In this document: positions 4,001 to 64,000 of the stretch, piece by piece
How the letters are laid out: every line of letters begins with the position of its first letter
How positions within the stretch are numbered: the stretch's first letter is position 1
NCBI GenBank assembly: GCA_004794655.1
Contig: SMMW01000613.1
Span: 166,501-230,500, forward strand
Direction of reading: 5' to 3'
Source of the DNA: Marisa cornuarietis
Lineage: Eukaryota > Mollusca > Gastropoda > Architaenioglossa > Ampullariidae
DNA length: 64,000 nucleotides
The notes under the pieces: generated by a model
Database searches by the model: none
The model's input: the letters and a program-made list of their open reading frames with translations, nothing else
What the model was told of the DNA's origin: nothing
Position numbers and translations under genes: made by a program

Positions 4001-7000
4001 TAAGTAAGCCTGGAATAAGTAATGTCTATGACTCTCTTGGGGCCTTTTTTGAGCAGCTGAAATTCCTGCTGCTAATGTCTCTGGTGGCACCAAAAACTTC
4101 AAACTTGATAAGCAAAAGGTTGTTTTTTTTTGATACAGTAAAAAATAATAAATCCAGCATATCTTGTCACAAAGGTTATGTTGGCTGGATTTATCCTACT
4201 GTGGAAAATGTGAAAAAAATTAACGATTTTCATCATCAGATCCAACAAGAATGAACACTATTTTTTCTACATGTTCGTAACCAGACTGACCCATCAGCTG
4301 TGGTTCACATGGAGAGGAAGATGGGTACCACCAACTGCTGTGTGGTGTTCTTACTTTCCCTATCACCATAGCTAAGGCGACTGTTATAGCTAAGGCAATA
4401 GTATGGTCCCTGTTCCTTACTCTCCTCATCACTATAGCTAAGATGACTGTGTGGTCCCTGTTCTTACTCTCATCACTATAGCTAAGATGACTGTGTGGTT
4501 CCTACTCTTACTCTCCTCATCACTATAGCTAAGGTGACTGTGTGGTTCCCATCTTCCACTGAGCTGCTGTGTGCTGCTGCACTTTCCTCTGTCTCAACCT
4601 GAATGTCAAATGAACTTTGTGGATACTTGTGAGTACATGAGTGATATATATATATATTTATTTTAATGAAGGATGCTAAAATTCAGTTCTGACCTCAATC
4701 AGAAGCACAAAAAATGTCAAATTGTGCAACTGATGTATGGATGATCACTGAATTCTTATGCGCAAACTTGGTGTGATTCAGACAGAATTTAATTTGCCTT
4801 TAAGTTAGTCCATCAAAGGAACATCCATACAGATTTTGCATTCTCTGTGTATAATTATTTCCATAAATTATTGTACCTTATGTAAGTGTAGGTACCACAG
4901 CAAAAGTGCTCACTTGCCAATGTTATTCTGTAGTTTTGCTCTGTGCTTTGAAGGCGGCCATAAACCTGAGGTTTTTGTGCAGTACACATATTTGTCTAAG
5001 ACCCAGCAACAATATATTATTTGGACAGCCTTTAGGCAATTGTTTTGTGCTTTGTGGCAAGAACACTCAAGTGACTATATGTGTATGTTGTACACCACCA
5101 ACACACTAGGTAGTCAACCAAATACATATATGCACACATACACACACACGAATATACACATTTTTCCTCGGAGCGACACTACACATTTATATGTGCACAG
5201 AAGCAGACAATGCCAAATGTCTAAACGCTTTTTTCATGCATCTTACTGTAAGAATCTGTAATTGAGATTGCCTACCCTTGACTCCAACTAAAGAGATGAA
5301 GTGATTTCGACCCTGACTGCTCCAAGCTACACAGATGGGCTTGTTCAGTACTCCATCCTTGCCACAGCATTTTTCAGGTTCAACAAGTGCAGGTAAAAAC
5401 ACACCTTGAAACAGTAAGACACAGTGGCGATAGTTGTGCTGCAAGTACACACTTATCAAATAAAAGCCATGGCAAATCATTTTACAAAAGCTTTTGTCAC
5501 AAACTGCTATTTCTTAATCATTAAACGAAACTGCCAGTACATCTGTTTATTGTCCAGCATATCCACCATCAAACTTTCTGTTTATTTTTCTTATTAATAT
5601 AACATTCCTCTACATAAAGTATTTTGACTGATCACTAACAGAAAACCAGGCTGTGCCTAACTGGAGTGAATCACTTCCAGCTTTTCACTGTTTTCTTACA
5701 TAGTGATGGTGGCAGGTGGGTCTAGCAGCTGATATTAGTGTCACCATACCATTCTTTCACTAAATATCATGTGCTCTGTGTTCTGTGTCCTAGATGGAAG
5801 GCACGTGGATGTGTGCCCTAATCATCGATGTGACACCCAGATGTGTGCTCTTTGCTGTGGCTTGGATATGTATGGTGTCATGGCAGGATGTGACACTGAT
5901 GTGCATGGTTTCATGACAGGATGTGACATTGACATGTGCCTACTTCCACGATCACAGTCTCAGCTCCCATGGCCCTTCTCTGGTCCATGGCTTTTAGATT
6001 GTGTGTCTTAGCAGATTCATCCTGCAATGCATGCCATGATGCTTATCTGGGCCATGCTGTTTACTCTGACACATTGTTTGCTGTGTATTTCAACTACTTC
6101 AATGCTGCAACATGTTACCAGGATACTTGTGTGGGCTGTGATGTATAGACAATGCAACCCATCCATTCTCGCATCCAGTACAAACTGTGCCTGGTGTGCT
6201 TTAATTTCTTTGCTGGCTCCTGCCCTATTTCTCTCAATGTTTCTTCCTCTACATCCCAGCCAGACAACTACTCTTCATCTGACAACCATCTTCTCACTAT
6301 TCCTGTCACCAGAACAACATCATATGGTCACAGGATCTTTAGTCACTGTACAGCAAAACAATGGAGTTCTCTCTTCTTCCACATCCACCACCTATCCACC
6401 ATTGGATCTTTTAAATGTACGCTGAAAACACATTTCCTTGAGAATTACTGCTAACAGTCCACACTATTCTATTCCTTTTCGACCCCGCCCCCCTTTTCTG
6501 TTTATTGCTACTTCCCTACTCTGCTGAATTACAACACTCTTAGTTCTTGTTACTTGCTTCCTCTTTACCTTTTTTTATTAGTCATCAATACTGTTGTTCA
6601 TCCTCCCATTCCTTCATATGTCGTTCATGTCTCACTCTTGTTTTAAGCACCAAGAGCACGCTCCTTATAAGCATGAGTATGCTCTATACAAATCACTTAT
6701 TATTATTTTTGTTGCTATAAATGTGGTGGCTGTCTGATAGGTTTGAGAAGGTGGACCAGAATCATATAAAGAAATAAACAAGTATATATATATATGTGTG
6801 TGTGATTTCATTCTTTTGGCCGTAGCAGTCGGCTGAACATCCAGCATTATTCACCTAAAGGTGGAATTTCTGCAGTTGCATAGGTTGATGACTTCTCCGC
6901 GATTTTGTTGCAGATGACATAATGAACTATGCAAACTGTTGATCTGACACCATTAATGATCATGCACCAGCCCATTTGTATACACTTACACTGATATTCT

Positions 7001-9308
7001 CTGTAAAGCACACATCACATGACATAGCTTTAAGCTATGACAATTAAATAAGAAAGCTAAGCTTTAACCTGTAAAGGTTAAATGCAAATTCTAAGCCTAA
7101 ATGCTTGAATGTGTTATGTGCACATCACTTGAAGTAAAAATAAGAAAAAAAAGAGAGAAATTAGGCAGACTGGAGAACCTTGTTTCCTCCACACTCCTCA
7201 CAACTACCCAGACCCATATACCTCTACACAGCCCCAATAAACAACATTCTACCTAGATCCATATACCTCTACACAGCTCCACTATGTATCCACATGCACA
7301 AACAGCCTCCCTCTGACCTCTACACACATGCCTATAAATACACATCTCAAAAAGACGTGCCTGTGAGCATTTGTATAAAAGCATTTACACCTACACATGT
7401 TCATTACATCACCTTTTCCCACACTCATATATGCCAAACCTTTGCTTCTTACCGGAGTAGTCTCCACTGCTTTGCATTCCTCCCAATGTATCCAAGAGGA
7501 TTATAGGCCTTTTAAGAACATTGGCAAGACCAAATATATGAATATTTCTCAGGCCTGCTGGTTCATGGTCTTTTGGCATGAAGTTTGGGTCACACTCCTC
7601 AATAATCTCTTTCCATTCATCCTTGTCAACAAAGTTCTCAAATAACAGTTCATACTTTTCCAGGTTGTCCTGTAAGTGGTGCATCAGATTGAGTCGCAGA
7701 GCATGCCAGAACAACTCTCGACCAACTAATGCCCGAGAAACTGCGTGCACCAGACAGTGACCATCTCCATCAGCATATATGGGGATTAATCGGTCATCAT
7801 CATCATTAACTTTCTTTACTGCCTCTAAAGTGTCTGCCAGGTAAGCAGCACTAGAAGGATCACGGCCAAAGCCTTCGATGTTGACGTGCTCAGAATCCAA
7901 TAGAAAAGCTCTGTCGGATAAATTTCCACAGTCAAATATCTCACCCTGACCCATTTCTGTCAGCAGCTTTGCTCGGCCTGTCTGACGATCCATGCCGTAG
8001 CGACTCAGCACAGGCGACAACAGTTTGCACATATAGTTGGACAGTCCCAAGACCTGTGGCACCATAAACAATTGGATACAGTCATGTCGCGATACAGCTA
8101 ATGCATAAGGACATAATACAGCACAAGTCTTTTTCATTTATAAAAAATGTGCTTTCCAACATTAGAATTATCACTAGTTCCTTAAACTGAAGTGTGCAAA
8201 AACACAAATAATAATAATAATCATGCAACCTTTCAGTTCTACACCAACTGTCGTTGCAAGTGTGTCACCAGTAGAAAAAAATGATTGTCTCTTTTTTCAA
8301 ATTAGCTATCTGTGTTTTCAGATGTGGAACCTGCTACCTCTTACCAAGAATAGGAAAACACACTGAAGAATGAACAATTTCTCAATAGTACTATAGTGCT
8401 GGGTGAGACATCACCAAAGGCCAGTATTACAGAAATTACAGTGTACAGAAGTGTCAACTATCTGCAGTCTCAGTGCTCTTTTACGTTGTACTCATCCAGT
8501 CAATTAACATCACTAAATGAAAACGTGAAAAAGTGATTTTAACTGAAAGCAAGGCAATGGCCAACACATTTGAGACCTATGTAAATTACTGTGTTTACTG
8601 ATTGTTTGAATGCTCTATGCAAATTCTAAATATAGGTGCAGACCTGTGGGCTAGTCTATGTTATGTGAGACTCATAAGCCATACACCAACAGGTTAGTGG
8701 TATGTTATCCATTAAGGCCAGTCACACGGCTTTATACTGCCTGCCCTATCTCGTCACCAAAAAAATACAGACTTTAAGTTCCCAAATATAGACTTATTTC
8801 TAGGAAAAGTGTGTTGGTGTTGCAAAATACCTTTAGAAGGAAAAAAAGCTTGTGAGTTGCATCACTCCTGCAAAATTATTTTCCGATATAGACAAAATTT
8901 CTTAACTGAGTGAGCTTATATATAATTTTTCTAATTAGCCCTTAAAGAGTGTGTGACCTTATAAATATGTATGATCTTATTAATAACTGCACTTTACAGG
9001 CTCTTTTCTCTTAGTCTTACCTTCACATTGTCTGGACCTCGATGAGGTTTAACAGTGCTCATAAGAAGACTTTGCAGTAAATTCTGGAAAGTGCCAGCTG
9101 AAGTTGGTGCTTCCATAATGCTAAGTAAAGTTGATTTTTCATGTCTCTGTCCACATCCTGTGCATTCCACACTTGAGCTGGTGGATAAAAAGTGTAACTT
9201 TGTCTGACATTGAGGATCTGGGCAAATCCCACAAAGGATGTGATGCTTATCACTGGTGTCAGGGCTGTTCCTGATAGAAGGTGATGGCTGGTTGTCACTA
9301 AGGGGCAT
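1001..9308 (-). CDS. VCPIP1: VCPIP1 homologue, OTU-type deubiquitinase (5' six exons, partial)
   Basis: Homologue of valosin-containing protein p97/p47 complex-interacting protein 1 (VCIP135), a deubiquitinase that acts with p97 in Golgi and ER reassembly. Coding exons, in transcript order: 9308-9021, 8053-7453, 5404-5276, 3027-2897, 1998-1887 and 1213-1001. All have AG acceptors, GT donors and matching phases, giving 491 codons. The start is the ATG at 9308. The N-terminal cysteine cluster (C26, C29, C34, C49, C52) fits the family's zinc-ribbon-like start. The catalytic motif DGDGHCLVHAVSRAL carries the expected nucleophile C196 with D193. The partner histidine is H331 in GRNHFISLVG. Vertebrate members are about 1,200 residues, so over half the protein, including the UBX-like part, lies left of the window. 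No exon is visible in 1-1000. Family assignment is firm. Confidence 0.95.
1580..1765. repeat. Degenerate tandem repeat in VCPIP1 intron 5
   Basis: Five diverged copies of a unit of about 35-40 bp built on 'gtggttcattatcaagtct' plus a 'ccacagctgt' segment, between VCPIP1 exons 5 and 6. The copies differ by small indels, so this is an old minisatellite. It does not encode protein. Confidence 0.7.
4340..4560. repeat. Tandem repeat, about 50-bp unit, in VCPIP1 intron 3
   Basis: About four copies of a unit containing 'catcactatagctaagatg' followed by 'actgtgtggttcc' and a CT-rich stretch. Copies are 80-95 percent alike by eye. Intronic minisatellite with no gene signal. Confidence 0.7.
5780..5945. 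repeat. Short degenerate tandem repeat
   Basis: Repeats of 'atgtgacac' and 'ggatgtgacattgacatg'-like units, about 27-35 bp apart, in VCPIP1 intron 2. The open frame across it reads as cysteine-rich only because of the repeated TGT/TGC codons. Confidence 0.5.
6150..6716 (+). mobile_element. LINE (CR1/Jockey-like) 3' fragment with end of reverse transcriptase
   Basis: The frame at 6152-6454 ends in a pattern typical of the C-terminus of CR1/Jockey-type reverse transcriptases: a segment like YGHRIFSHCTAKQWSS, then the ending FKCTLKTHFL and a stop at 6452-6454. The following 260 bp are a 3' UTR ending 'agcatgagtatgctct' and an ATT-rich tail. That tail matches, in reverse complement, the repeat at 35305-35665, which ties the two to one family. 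The copy is 5'-truncated and sits in VCPIP1 intron 2 in antisense orientation. Confidence 0.65.
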
Positions 9309-10624
9309 TATGCAGATAATGGAAATGCCAGAATTGCTTCCACTGTGAACAAAAAACTTTTATAAATGAAATCTTCTTTGCATGGACAATTTCACATTTC
9401 ATTCTTATTTGAGATGGAGTTTTTCTAAAGCTATATATAAATTATGCTATACAGTTGCAACCTAAGCCAGCACTTGTGCCGAACAATTATGTAATAACAA
9501 TCATATTTCTAGATTTTTAGTATATATTGTTTAATAATAAGGACAAGAACTCTCAAAACTTCCAGACTACTAATGTATAAAACAAAGTATAACACTTTTT
9601 CCACATGCTCCTGAGTGTTTCATAGTATTTTATTTATACCACTGAGTTGCAAGAAACAAATGAATGCATGATACAAAATGCAAAGATTGAGTCTAAAAAT
9701 AAATTGTGCTAGGTGGGAATATATGATGTTGGCGTTATCATACAAAAACGTCAAACCGTTTACCTAAATTCTTCCAAATCATCCATGATTGGTAGAAACA
9801 AAATGTCAGCTTTTACCACTTAATAATGAAAGTACAATGACCAAACAGGAACGTAAGGCCTATTTATGCCAAAGGTCTGAAGGACCAAATAAATTCTAAT
9901 GATTGCGTCTACAATACCCGGACTGCAGTGTTAACATCCATGTTCCCCAAATCGGGGAAATCCCAAATTACTGGAAATGCCAACTTCCTAGTACGAATTT
10001 TGGCTTAAGGCGCTTTCGGTTTGTAATTGAGAGACAGGCTAATCAAACAAGTAACTCATATGTGCCCTACCTGCACAGGCTACATCTACGAAAACGGGCA
10101 AGTTTAGAGTCGCACTAGCCGCCCCTCTCCAACTTTGCCTTTAGAAATACCACTAATAGCCATGTCAGCTCTATAAATACACAGGGCCTAAGTTCTGTAA
10201 TGGATCTTCGTGACCAGTTGGTACAGGTGGTTTAGTCCTACCTCTTCGATGTAAACGGTTTTCAGCTGAAACATCAAGCCAGGAATACTGATGAATTGGT
10301 GCCCAACATTGCCATTCCCTGATCCAAGTCACTGTTTACAAAATGTCTCTTGTGGTCGTTCCAACGTTTGTATGGATTGGTCAATATTCACTTGGCATAA
10401 TAACTTACACGTTAAACCTCATATTTGCACAGATATTATATGTCATTTATAAAAAGAAAAAACTAAGAAATATGCGAATTGGCCATCAAAATTCTTACTG
10501 GCAAAATACAAACAGTGATTTCCTTGTCCGTTGTACGCGAATAATACCGAAGTCTTGGATAATACGCAGATGTTGCAGCCAATGGCAGGAGTTGTTACAA
10601 AAACTTCACACATTTTCGAGAAAA
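9309..10624. promoter_or_regulatory. Divergent intergenic region, VCPIP1 / PPP1R2
   Basis: The two start codons point away from each other with 1.3 kb between them, so both promoters and 5' UTRs must lie here unless 5' non-coding exons exist. The stretch from about 9,900 to 10,680 is richer in CpG than its surroundings. No TATA box is obvious near either start. An ATG-led frame from 10343 runs in phase into the PPP1R2 start, but its first 94 codons resemble nothing in the IPP-2 family and are probably UTR. Confidence 0.5.
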
Positions 10625-41880: not shown

Positions 41881-44800
41881 ATGAAAATGACAGCTACAGG
41901 CTTTCAAGATATTGGTCCAGGCTTCTATTTTATAGCAAAATGTGATAGTATGGATGCTTTGCGCAGATGCATTACCTCAGGTGTGTGGGCAAGCAGAGAA
42001 CGATCCAAATCACCTCAGCCTCACCATATTTTAGCTGAAGTCTTTTCTGAAGGCCCAGTGATTCTTATTTTCAGTGTGAACAATTGTCATGGATGGCATG
42101 GGTATGCCAGTATGCTGAGCCCTCCAGAAAGAGAAGTGGAAAAAAATGAAGGTGATGGAAGTGGTCAACGCTATCACGAGTCAGTTGATGAATGCAAGAA
42201 GAACGAAGACAGCTTCGATTCCACTAACAGTACAACTGAGTATTTAAACCCCTTAGTTGTGGGAACTGGTTTTCAAGATGCAAGTGATGATGCTAAACAA
42301 ATACGTCTTTGGCATCACTTTAAAATTCACTGGCATAAACAGTTTCTTACTGATTTTGGAGAAACAGGCTTGTCTTTTGAGAATACAAAGCAGTTTGCAC
42401 TTCCTGACAGCACACCTGTTAACAAAGCTCGTAACTGGCAACATATAACTCCAGATGTCGGACGTCAGATCTGCCAGCTGTTAGATGATTTTCATGCTAG
42501 TCTGGTTGAGAGAAGACAAAAAGCAGTGGAAGACAAACAGGCCTCTAACCCTGCTCCATTTCTTAACATGGATGCTTGTGCTGGGAAAGGCCATGGTGAG
42601 CACTGGAAGATGGTCGTCCAAAAAGTGGAGCATGAGCTTGGTCGAGTGCATCTGGCCTGCCCATATGGGAGTCAGAGGTGAGAGGTCTGTGATATTTACC
42701 TCACATTTGTCTGAGCTTACAAGAGTCTGATCTGTTCTGTGCATGCTTTACTTCACAGTTTTCTGCCCTACCAAAAGTTGTTGGGTTGTATCTGTGCATT
42801 GTAGTATGTCAGGTACTGTACAGACAAGTCAAGCTCTGTAGCTATTTGATTAGTGTATCTAACTTTAAAACAGAAGGTTGTTAAGTTCAAGGCTGACTCA
42901 AGCCACTGACTGGAAAACTTCCTATTCACCCAGAATGTGTGCCTTCATCATCATCATCATTGTTTATCCCTTCACCAGTTGATGACAAGTTATAAAGGTC
43001 TAAGACAGTAGAAGAAGGTTGGACTTAGTTTCCACATGCTGAGCTCTGTACAAGGTTATTGCTGTTTTATATTTAGAATAGGATCTAGTGCAAACCTTTT
43101 ACTAAATAGTAGTGTCATCTCAAAGTCACTTCTTGTGGTCATTCTGACTGGTTTTACTATTAGTCAGATAATGCTTTTTCCTTTATTTTTATAAAAGTAA
43201 AGAGATGTAGGTTCTGATTTTAGTTTGGTCTTTCAATGGGGTGGGAAAAGCCATCAGTTCAAATGAGTCTGTCTTCAATTACTGAATTTGTCTATTACTG
43301 TTGTAGATACAACCTTCAACATGAGGACAGCGATATCGATGCCTTTGTTGTTTATCAGGCTCACACTAGAGACCTCCTGTCCTTCAATCCTCCTAAGGGA
43401 ACTGTGAAGGTTAGACTAAATAGACTAATAGTGCTAAAATAGTAGTGCTAGCAGTAATAACAACAACGGTAGTGGTAAGCTCCATCATATCATTGTTATC
43501 ATAAATTGTCATGGTATTAATCACTGGTGTCATCATTGTCATTGTAAGTTGTCATGGTAATAGTAATTGCCCTCTAGGACAAATAAAGTATTATCTTATC
43601 TTATCTTATTATCTTATCTTATTATCTTATCTAATAATAATAACTAAATTTGTAGAGAGCATTTCCCATGCGCTGTGCTTAAAGACTAGAAACTAACCAA
43701 CAGTCAGCCATGCAACAAAGAAACACAAGTGGCAGCAGACGGAGGACTCTGTGGCAGTCATGAATAAAGTGCATGAATGCAGACAAAAACAATGAGAACA
43801 GTGAGCAGAAGAGTTCACTTGATTATGAAAGATATTTCTTAAAGACGTGGGTCTTGGGGCTAAACTTGAAAGCTCCAAACTTAGACACAGTTCAAAGACA
43901 AAGGGGCAGAGAATTCCAAATGGTAGGTTCAGAGAATCAGAAACAGCATCTGCCAGATTTCTCTCATCTGATGCATAATACAGAGAGGATACCAACACAA
44001 GCAAATCAAAGAGACCGGCTTTGATGGTAAGGTATCAGTAGCTCAGACAGATAGGCTGATGTGAGGTAATGTTGACAACTGTAGCAGAGTGTGACCATCT
44101 TGTAATCATTGCAAGCTTGAACTGGCTACCAGTGGAGCTTGCAGAACATGGGTGTAGCATGGCCTGCGTGTTGTTCACAGAAGGCAAGTGGCATTATTCT
44201 GTACTGTCTGAAGTTTGTCCTGTAGGTGATTAGGGAAATTGATGAGTAACAGTAATCTTTGGTGTTAGCTTTATTGTAAATCCTTTGTCATGGTAATCAT
44301 TGCTGTCTTTTGTCATTGTAGATTGTCATGGTAATTATTGCTGCCATCATATTCTTCAGTACTACTAGTAATAAAAAATAACCTCAAAACTCGATATGCA
44401 CATAAAAAATAAGAATGGACATGTATCCTAAATATATCTACAATTACATATGCACCAAAAATAATTTATCTATAGACTAGCAAAAGAGTACCTGAGGCTG
44501 CTTTGTAATCTACAAATCCAAGATGCTTTATAGAGTGAGGACAGACATATCTCTTATAAGTGGTATGCCTTTTGTAGAACAGTGAGAGAGAGACGTGTGA
44601 TTATACAATATTGGAGCTGCACCGATACTGTGAGCTACTTCTGTTATCGGATGCTCGGTGTGTTGAAACTCTCTTCCTCCATGATTCAACCATTATTCAC
44701 TCATCACCAGAATGGAGACAGCTACAACAGCATCGACAGCAGTTTTTGAACAGGTACAGTCTTGGTGACCCTCATCACTGAATTTGTTTTCAGATTTTCT

Positions 44801-47329
44801 CACAAACTATAGACAAAGAAATTTTTTCTTATAGGGATGTGTTTAATTTTTCACAGCTTGTGTCATGACTTGCTTTAAGCTGCTATCAAACTCTACATTT
44901 GCTATAAACATATTGAGATAGAATGTCCAGCATTCTAGCAAAGCCTTTTACAGCAGTGGATAATTGCAAAAAAGATTTACTGATTTTGTTTCTACAACTA
45001 CTTCACAATAAAACAATCTAACGACTTATTAATAACAAAAGTATTCTGGGCATTTCTGGCAGTGGTGTATATTTGAAAACTACTTTTAGAAAGACCACTG
45101 AAGACTAGATACTTTGCTAATTGTGTTAGTTAAGGGACAGTTAAGAAAAAATCCAGCAAATCTGAAGTTTGTAGCATTTTTTCCATAATATTCTGCACAT
45201 ACTAATTTTCCTAGAAAATGCCTGGATAAATATTTGGGAGATGCCTTGGGCTCAAATGGTGTAAAACGACTGGAGCGTTATGTGAAAGAGAATCCTGGTG
45301 TAACTAGTTCCAGCACCCTGCCACGCCACATCTCCAAACTGGCTTACATCATCATCAGGCTGCTACAGAATGCTGAGTAGGTCATGTCACTGGTGGTTTT
45401 GTCCCTCACTCCGTGGAGTGCATCTTGTGATGAAGTCTCAAGATGAAGTCTTGGGACATGTCTGTCTTGTAGATCTATAACACGTTTATCATGGCTCAGA
45501 GTATCATTCATGGAAGTCATGATGTGTGGTGATGGTCGTGGGTATCAGGTGTATAAATTGTGACGTCTCTGTATTATAATCATGGTGTTCACTGCATCCC
45601 TTGTGTTAATTACATGTCTCTGTATTATATTCATGGTAGTCAGTGCCTTAAAAATTATTTCCAAACTTTGCTAGGGACATCGTCAAGGGCAGGCAACTTG
45701 AAGTTTTCCGAAACGATAGCTCTAGCAGCAAGGTTTTGCTCCACAGAATTCGCACTTCTAACCTAACCTTGAGTGAAATCAACACACATATAGAAAAGTA
45801 AGTGTTTGCATGTAAACATTTAAATCATGTGTGTATGTGTATGCATATATGTCGGGATATTTAATTGAATGCTTATAAAACTCAGCATCACAGCTAAAAC
45901 AGATTGCACTATGGGACGAACAGCAAATAGTAAGAACACAAAAAGTGAAACATAAACTACACTATCTAACAATGACATGCCTTGATGAGGATAGATGAGT
46001 AGTTATCTAAATCCAGTGTCATGCCAGTTTTATATCCATTTGGCACAACAAACGTCCTCCAGCTGACTCATCTGTTTAGAATGGGTACCTGACACTGTAG
46101 ATCCGCGGTTCTCAACCTGGGGGGCGCGCCCCCCAAGGGGGGGCGCAAGCTGCTGAAAAGGGGGCCGCAAAGGCGGTCATTTTCTCATATCTCATATAGG
46201 TATTAGTGGCTATGGGGGGCGCGCGGACGTACCTTTATTCGTCTGGGGGGGCGTCACAAGTAAAAGGTTGAGAAACGCTGCTGTAGATGGTTGGGGAAAG
46301 GTAAAGCAGTGAGAAAGGGTTGAGGGGATATGGACATGGTCCTCACAAAAAAGCTAATTACTAACACCTCAACTCCCAGTGACCTTAACAAAGATTAGGG
46401 CATAAACTTGATGCACCAAATACACTTTGTTACTAAAATGTAATTACCATATTGAAAAGATATAAACAGGAAAGACTGTAAGAGTCAATATAGAAAAGAC
46501 ATTTGACTCGTAAAAAATGCTATCAAGAAAGTGATGCACAACAGTTGTGAGACAAAACTTAAGCAAAGTCATTTTTTTAAAGAGTAAGGTTTTAGCAAGC
46601 ATTTAAGTGCTGAGGCTAAATGACAAATCAGGCATGGGAGAGAATGCCATTGTTTAGAATGTGTGAGTGAATTCACAGATATGAAAAAAGGAAGATTACA
46701 CTCTCATCCCTAGCATATGGAGAATTAGATAGCCAGGTAGTTAGGATGCTGCCATTTGAACCTTGAGGCTCAATGCTAGCTAGTTCAATGGTCATGCAGC
46801 CCAGTGTTTAGAGGGTTAGAGAAAGAAAGGCAGTAAAGAAGAGGTGGACATCACCCTTACAAAACAGCTGACCCCAAACTTAGCAGAAACAGTCACAACC
46901 AGGAAATGTCACAACTGGCTCGCATTGTCAAACCCAACAGTCACGCACTTGATCACTGTTGCATGTAGACACTCAGCTTTCCACCACCACCACCACCACC
47001 ACCACCACCCTTCTCTCACACACAGCTGCCAGTCATACTAGGCTTATAATGTTCTGTTTATCTTATCTGGCTGTGTTTAGTTTACTGTTATATGCATCTC
47101 ACAGTCATAGTCAGCTGACACAGGGATATCCAACTTATAAGTTGCCTCAAGGTGAGACAAAGATGTAAATCATCTTTAGCTGACACATTTTTTGTCCAGG
47201 CTTGTGACCAATATCCAGGAAGGAAAGGAAAATGTACCTGAAGACTCACCTTCAGTCAAAGCTAATCTGGAGAAATGGATGCTGTACATACGATTTCAAG
47301 ACTTTCAGCAATTTCCTCCACAAAGCTGA
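41881..47329 (+). CDS. YTH domain fused to RlaP-like nucleotidyltransferase
   Basis: Exons 41881-42677, 43307-43409, 44578-44753, 45215-45376, 45675-45797 and 47200-47329 join in phase to 496 residues; an in-frame TAG at 41878 sits right before the ATG. Residues 8-205 form a YTH-like m6A-reader fold: FYFIAKC, then SGVWAS with cage-type W36, VILIFSVNNCHGWHGYASM, an acidic insert (about 83-140), HHFKIHW and a GRQICQLLDDF strand. From about 260 a polymerase-beta-type nucleotidyltransferase follows: YGSQRYNLQHEDSDIDAFVVY with G263, S264, D275 and D277; D308 in CDYTILEL as the likely third acid; then CVETLFLHD and KLAYIIIRLLQ. This order matches the RlaP family (RNA ligase-associated polymerase). 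Seen: motifs and fusion. Inferred: recognition of modified RNA and nucleotide addition to its ends. Substrate and partner are unknown. Confidence 0.85.
43560..43640 (+). mobile_element. LINE 3' end with (ATCTT)n tail
   Basis: The segment 'gccctctaggacaaataaag' followed by 'tattatcttatcttatctta' has the form of a CR1-like LINE 3' terminus and its microsatellite tail. It lies in intron 2 of the YTH-RlaP gene and directly abuts the next repeat. Confidence 0.6.
43630..44270. repeat. Interspersed repeat of the AAT / 'gcgctgtgctta' family
   Basis: Starts 'aataataataactaaatttg', then 'cccatgcgctgtgcttaaag', then 'aagacgtgggtcttggggct' and 'agagaattccaaatggtagg'. The same order of blocks appears, decayed, at 36903-37160 and 46570-46690. 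Intron 2 of the YTH-RlaP gene. Confidence 0.5.
46103..46280. mobile_element. hAT-type MITE with 8-bp target duplication
   Basis: A 178-bp element. The left end CCGCGGTTCTCAACCT and the reverse complement of the right end CAGCGTTTCTCAACCT differ at two of 16 positions. The flanks are an exact 8-bp duplication, ctgtagat, at 46095-46102 and 46281-46288. End sequence and duplication length are diagnostic of hAT elements. The interior is GC-rich (long G and C runs, GGCGCGCC) with no open frame, so it moved in trans. It lies in intron 5 of the YTH-RlaP gene. Confidence 0.9.
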
Positions 47330-62705: not shown

Positions 62706-62964
62706 CTGAACTACCTACGCCACTGCTAATTGGAGGCAGAATAGAATAGAATGCAAAAGCTAGTGAAACACAAATCAGAGCTGAAAGATAAAAAGACAGG
62801 CGAAGAACACGAGACAATGCCAAACACGCAGATAAAGAACTAAATGTAAGGCACAAGAAAGACCACAAAAAAAGTATGCTCCCCGCAACACACATAAGAA
62901 AAGATAGAAAAAGAAATGTAGGTTTACACGAATGAAGTTTAACAAGCAGCTGTATGATTGAGCC

Positions 62965-64000
62965 CTGTAGCTCTATGATACAGAGATAGGCCCTCGACAC
63001 TCTCACTCACACATGTAGCTCTATGATACAGAGACAGGCCCTCGACACTCTCACTCACACATGTAGCTCTATGATACAGAGACAGGCCCTCGACACTCTC
63101 ACTCACACATGTAGCTCTATGATACAGAGACAGGCCCTCGACACTCTCACTCACACATGTAGCTCTATGATACAGAGACAGGCCCTCGACACTCTCACTC
63201 ACACATGTAGCTCTATGATACAGGCCCTCGACACTCTCACTCACACATGTAGCTCTATGATACAGAGACAGGCCCTCGACACTCTCACTCACACATGTAG
63301 CTCTATGATACAGGCCCTCGACACTCTCACTCACACATGTAGCTCTATGATACAGGCCCTCGACACTCTCACTCACACATGTAGCTCTATGATACAGAGA
63401 CAGGCCCTCGACACTCTCACTCACACATGTAGCTCTATGATACAGGCCCTCGACACTCTCACTCACACATGTAGCTCTATGATACAGATCACCCTCGACA
63501 CTCTCACTCACACATGTAGCTCTATGATACAGGCCCTCGACACTCTCACTCACACATGTAGCTCTATGATACAGATACCCTCGACACTCTCACTCACACA
63601 TGTAGCTCTATGATAGCTCTATGATACAGGCCCTCGACACTCTCACTCACACATGTAGCTCTATGATACAGAGACAGGCCCTCGACACTCTCACTCACAC
63701 ATGTAGCTCTATGATACAGGCCCTCGACACTCTCACTCACACATGTAGCTCTATGATACAGATACCCTCGACACTCTCACTCACACATGTAGCTCTATGA
63801 TACAGATACCCTCGACACTCTCACTCACACATGTAGCTCTATGATACAGATACAGGCCCTCGGCACTCTCACTCACACATGTAGCTCTATGATACAGGCC
63901 CTCGACACTCTCACTCACACATGTAGCTCTATGATACAGATACCCTCGACACTCTCACTCACACATGTAGCTCTATGATACAGGCCCTCGGCACTCTCAC
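62965..64000. repeat. Minisatellite of about 23 copies, 42-48-bp units
   Basis: Units are built from 'tctatgatacagagacaggc', 'cctcgacactctcactcaca' and 'catgtagc'. Length variants of 48, 45, 44 and 42 bp differ only in the segment after 'gatacag'. The array runs off the right edge. Frames of about 200 codons are open on both strands because the 48- and 42-bp units are multiples of three; nothing suggests translation. Any further 5' exon of the kelch-b561 gene would lie within or beyond this array. Confidence 0.95.

Follow-up and report, generated by a model that had tools for sequence, protein, structure and literature searches.

A single gene of the mollusc Marisa cornuarietis encodes a YTH domain and an RlaP-type nucleotidyltransferase in one protein. 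Sequence comparisons confirm that the two domains of this YTH–RlaP fusion belong to the same product, probably that of an intact, old animal gene. YTH and RlaP are each known families: what is new is their combination in an uncharacterised animal gene. The fusion already stands in protein databases under automatic names (YTH domain-containing protein, nucleotidyltransferase). No description of it was found among the papers listed in the literature searched, subscription papers lying outside its reach, and no paper found there names YTH and RlaP together; the sequence-only reading, which knew of no earlier account of a YTH domain joined to a nucleotidyltransferase, agrees with this search.

We give an even chance to the proposal that the protein is an RlaP-type RNA 3′-end nucleotidyltransferase carrying its own RNA-recognition module, a YTH fold with a remodelled pocket. 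Healing of RNA ends by an enzyme that recognises RNA through a domain of its own would be the most economical mechanism. The YTH half would bind damaged or marked RNA, perhaps tRNA, rRNA or stress-cleaved RNA, and present its 3′ end to the nucleotidyltransferase half, which would extend it by one or a few nucleotides; the RNA might then be sealed by another enzyme, the ligase RtcB or RLIG1. The Pfam YTH and RlaP scores, the matches to phrog_388, the alignment with the RlaP of Gordonia phage DatBoi, the repair-gene neighbours of RlaP relatives, the residue conservation and the structure models all support this RNA-end reading. It is weakened by the nearest nucleotidyltransferase folds, by the status of RlaP activity as itself a prediction, by the bacterial RlaP loci that have no repair cluster and by the 11 kb around the RlaP of Cronobacter phage CR3, where no ligase was called. 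An unlikely alternative casts the protein as a sensor of innate immunity, in which RNA held on the YTH half would prompt the nucleotidyltransferase half to make an oligonucleotide signal.

Organization of the gene

The gene lies in the window, that is, the whole stretch of 64,000 nucleotides that was analysed. A splice check joins six exons in frame to give 496 codons and a stop, and each of the five introns has a GT donor and an AG acceptor.

41881..42677, + strand: exon 1; start codon, entire YTH domain, linker and RlaP start up to GSQR (splice check, Pfam)
43307..43409, + strand: exon 2; RlaP motif DSDID with two catalytic Asp (splice check, conservation)
44578..44753, + strand: exon 3; CDYTILEL, which has the third catalytic Asp, and CVETLFL (splice check, conservation)
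45215..45376, + strand: exon 4; helical C-terminal part with the RLLQNA motif (splice check, conservation; phage RlaP alignment via the Haliotis orthologue)
45675..45797, + strand: exon 5; helical C-terminal part (splice check; phage RlaP alignment via the Haliotis orthologue)
47200..47329, + strand: exon 6; C-terminal helices and stop codon (splice check; phage RlaP alignment via the Haliotis orthologue)

Splice sites and in-frame join agree with the initial claim of one gene with six phase-matched exons and 496 residues. The 42677/43307 junction splits one conserved RlaP motif, whose GS ends exon 1 and whose partner DSDID lies in exon 2. A stop codon stands in frame immediately upstream of the first ATG; translation may start at 41881 or at the second Met at 41887, with which the Pomacea start aligns. 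The closest protein match is the orthologue of the apple snail Pomacea canaliculata, which is 87% identical over 100% of the query, in keeping with gastropod DNA in the window. This Pomacea model (P0001), labelled low quality by its source, diverges after CVETLF (LHDSTIIHSS in the window, LMIQPIIQAS in Pomacea), and the window sequence is unbroken at that point.

Elsewhere in the window, two ORFs of a VCPIP1/VCIP135-like deubiquitinase gene occupy 7409-9359 on the minus strand (VCIP135_N 2.6e-40 and 5.2e-27; OTU 3.2e-10), and a tandem repeat at 62939-63613 has frames that give repeated YHRATCVSESVEG or ALDTLTHTCSSMIQ units.

The YTH half and its pocket

The YTH profile PF04146 scores 63.1 bits on the window protein against a curated cut-off of 22.1, and 48.5–78.2 bits in all six full-length fusion relatives scanned.

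41926..42483, + strand: YTH domain, residues 16-201 (Pfam PF04146, E 3e-17)
41986..41988, + strand: W36, counterpart of W377 in the YTHDC1 pocket; 75 of the 79 rows of the family alignment have W, 4 have gaps
42310..42312, + strand: W144, an aromatic particular to the family, in the column that follows YTHDC1 L439; 73 of 79 rows have W, 2 have Y, 1 has F and 3 have gaps
42430..42432, + strand: R184, counterpart of YTHDC1 R475; 77 of 79 rows have R, 2 have gaps

In the structure model this half has a clear YTH fold, with best Z values of 18.5 for YTHDC2, 18.3 for CPSF30, 17.9 for YTHDF2 and 17.1 for YTHDC1, so that profile and model both bear out the original assignment of the N-terminal half. 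These values do not single out one YTH subfamily.

The pocket of YTHDC1 consists of W377, W428 and L439 (PMC6112328, accessible part). In an alignment of 72 family rows with YTHDC1, a comparison of columns and not of coordinates, the W377 equivalent is kept in 71 rows (1 gap), that of K361 in 70 and that of R475 in all 72, the remainder being gaps. The loop that bears W428 has Trp in 0 of 72 rows, the L439 column has L in 3, and the equivalent of N367, the residue that forms the bond to N1 of m6A, is S in 56 rows, A in 9, G in 2, D in 2 and N in 1, with 2 gaps. Set against the m6A-reader pocket, defined by W377, W428, L439 and the bonding residues N363/N367, the family departs from the pattern: of W377, W428 and L439 just W377 is kept. 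The alignment shows a YTH-fold domain with a putatively remodelled pocket, in which W377, K361 and R475 are retained and the rest of the m6A pocket appears lost.

These columns bear directly on the idea of an m6A reader whose nucleotidyltransferase tails m6A-marked RNAs, which we regard as distinctly unlikely. The fold seen in the model and the three retained residues favour it, but the W428 loop is devoid of Trp throughout and S or A takes the place of N367 in 65 of the 72 rows. Moreover, MJECL36 combines a YTH-like fold and an aromatic cage with undetectable m6A binding (PMC6112328, accessible part), so that a YTH fold alone does not prove m6A reading. In the form in which the sequence-only reading proposed it, guidance by m6A finds no support in these columns.

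The RlaP half

The RlaP profile PF10127 matches residues 254-369 with 42.4 bits (curated cut-off 23, E 8.7e-11) and scores 40.6–56.3 bits in all seven family relatives scanned; the match of the sponge protein spans positions 11-224 of the 249 in the profile. Both halves of the joined protein therefore exceed their curated cut-offs in the Pfam check that had been suggested, and the RlaP-like character first read from the GS...DSDID motifs is upheld by the score and by the conservation of those motifs.

42667..42672, + strand: nucleotidyltransferase GS motif (G263, S264); of 79 rows, 75 keep the Gly and 74 the Ser, with 4 gaps in either column
43332..43340, + strand: catalytic D275-I-D277; of 79 rows, 51 keep D275 (26 have gaps, 2 another letter) and 53 keep D277 (24 have gaps, 2 another letter)
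44599..44601, + strand: third catalytic residue, D308; kept by 49 of 79 rows, with gaps in 28 and another letter in 2

Nearly all non-matching rows at these five residues are gaps, as the 79-row family alignment includes many exon-1 fragments. The alignment shows a conserved catalytic triad (GS...SDxD and a third Asp). The profile phrog_388, a phage nucleotidyltransferase family, matches the proteins of Pomacea (9.4e-24), Haliotis (3.5e-23) and the sponge (1.4e-19), and residues 213-439 of the Haliotis protein align with 6-223 of the 224-residue DatBoi RlaP at 24% identity.

Sequence searches of solved structures gave no significant match for the RlaP half (two matches, E 0.38 and 0.77), and PADLOC and NCBIfam profiles gave no convincing family. 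In the model, the nucleotidyltransferase half comes closest, among solved folds, to aminoglycoside nucleotidyltransferases and to Hailong HalB rather than to tRNA-repair enzymes. It is very unlikely that the enzyme modifies a protein or small molecule in the manner of MNT or aminoglycoside nucleotidyltransferases, with YTH as a targeting module, for MntA reaches 13.1 bits against a cut-off of 60 and the RlaP and phrog_388 profiles fit far better.

Gene neighbours of RlaP in phages and bacteria

RlaP is described as a companion of RNA ligases that occurs across counter-RNase repair systems (PMC7824862 and PMC6514570, accessible parts). Its predicted role is to replace missing nucleotides ahead of ligation (PMC7824862, accessible part), its activity being itself a prediction there. 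In phage DatBoi one small gene separates the RlaP gene from an RNA ligase gene (PF09414, 3.7e-9). In Cronobacter phage CR3 a tRNA nucleotidyltransferase whose domains are PolyA_pol and HD is encoded ∼2 kb from RlaP, and no ligase was called among 21 annotated genes in 11 kb around it.

The bacterial set comprised the best 80 of 301 loci with a long RlaP, mostly from Flavobacterium and Chryseobacterium, of which 79 were parsed. Neighbours were clustered by homology, each cluster being named from one scanned representative. The clusters of interest are RtcB (13 loci), a kinase with a PNKP phosphatase domain (7), Thg1 (5) and TROVE (3); at least one of these four repair clusters occurs in 26 of the 79 loci and none in 53, counts drawn from loci that are not independent, as they stem from one query and close genera. 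The RNA-ligase context expected at the outset is thus seen for some RlaP relatives.

Further scanned neighbours are TatD, HamA, ATP-grasp and a polyvalent-protein kinase, which to our knowledge are not RNA-repair genes. Two or three RlaP-type genes are present in 64 of the 79 loci. Locus L001 holds short and long paralogues (1496-2293 and 6001-7056): the best profile for the short one is phrog_14344, and for P0092, the query by which the long one was detected, it is phrog_388. In Elizabethkingia a TROVE (Ro60-like) gene stands directly before RlaP (L077, 4598-5977).

Distribution and descent of the fusion

PF04146 and PF10127 occur in one protein in at least 36 named species among the matches listed. 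At least 32 of these are molluscs (15 gastropods, 16 bivalves and one chiton), and the others are Lingula, Owenia, Lineus and the glass sponge Oopsacas; the suggested survey of other molluscs, annelids and brachiopods thus recovered the architecture. No named vertebrate, arthropod, cnidarian or echinoderm is among the fusion matches listed. These come from several searches, one of which listed 120 of 5925 matches and two of which scored candidate sets of limited size; many of the matches have no species label, and absence from these groups is provisional. The search with 120 listed matches was biased to Flavobacterium by a bacterial row (P0075) in its profile.

The motif GS[QHR]R is present in 73 of 79 family entries and missing in 6. 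YN follows it in 49; the other 24 break off or depart just past the motif, which fits gene calls running into an intron at a conserved position. Six uninterrupted frames of 450–487 codons lie on contigs of 1632–2279 bases, too short for introns like these five, which points to spliced RNA (or a retrocopy); the contig label lgn presumably denotes assembled read archives.

In the full-length tree 20 molluscan rows form a clade (support 96/97) apart from brachiopod, annelid, nemertean and sponge, as vertical descent would be expected to give; two bivalves fall with the gastropods, and the sponge sequence, on a long branch, lies outside the clade. The single-half trees are poorly resolved and both place the sponge among molluscs: beside Solemya for the RlaP half (SH-aLRT 94) and with bivalves for the YTH half (81). 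A viral relative was sought in viral_contigs, where none of 63 pattern-matching stretches encodes one.

That the fusion is an artefact of the gene model, or that two genes lie side by side by chance, is scarcely credible: the M. cornuarietis structure was read from genomic DNA alone and the Pomacea model is flagged as low quality, but the architecture shared by so many species, the intron cutting through a conserved motif and the six open frames speak against it, and splice check, orthologue match and uninterrupted frames led to its rejection.

A candidate animal pathway

It is possible, if rather doubtful, that the remodelled YTH pocket reads an RNA mark or lesion-linked feature and that the same protein restores the 3′ end beside it. 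Capture of an RlaP of phage or bacterial type would then predate the separation of the main lophotrochozoan groups, and would be older still if the sponge gene was inherited. No ligase partner was found among four other ORFs scanned in the window. Orthologues of C12orf29/RLIG1 are reported from vertebrates and, among other eukaryotes, only from some molluscs, namely gastropods, bivalves and cephalopods (PMC9931718, accessible part), or from many metazoans (PMC11071452, accessible part); on either account a ligase would be available in molluscs. RLIG1 and the fusion overlap in Mollusca, and named vertebrates are absent among the fusion matches listed. A link between the two is speculation.

The fusion hints at an undescribed animal way to mend or mark RNA ends. 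It joins two fields, YTH readers and RNA end repair, that do not overlap in the literature searched. Were the enzyme active, RlaP would be at work in animals, its activity would point to a substrate for this YTH domain, which is probably no classic m6A reader, and mollusc RNA ligases could have a partner that heals ends ahead of them. The fusion is present in oysters, mussels and snails, which offer workable test species.

Comparison with known systems

The animal protein shares with phage and bacterial RlaP (PF10127, phrog_388) the profile match, the GS...SDxD...D pattern and a helical C-terminal part with RLLQ.A, and phage RlaP aligns with it along nearly its whole length, as in Haliotis and DatBoi. 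The animal gene differs in its introns and its YTH fusion, and no ligase neighbour was identified in the parts of the animal window examined. Hailong HalB, a bacterial defence gene, has ∼11% identity and, as far as we know, no YTH domain.

CoCoNuT systems likewise contain proteins that have a YTH-like domain and a predicted action on RNA, but they are prokaryotic restriction systems of GTPase and nuclease, and the term nucleotidyltransferase is absent from the accessible part of that text (PMC11090510). RLIG1, an animal 5′-3′ RNA ligase reported in Mollusca (PMC9931718, accessible part), is also an RNA-end enzyme; it is a different enzyme with a different reaction.

In contrast with YTHDC2, YTHDC1, YTHDF1-3 and CPSF30-L, the fusion is without W428 and N367 and has the conserved aromatic W144. 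We know of no nucleotidyltransferase partner in any of these proteins: that partner is the fusion's own feature.
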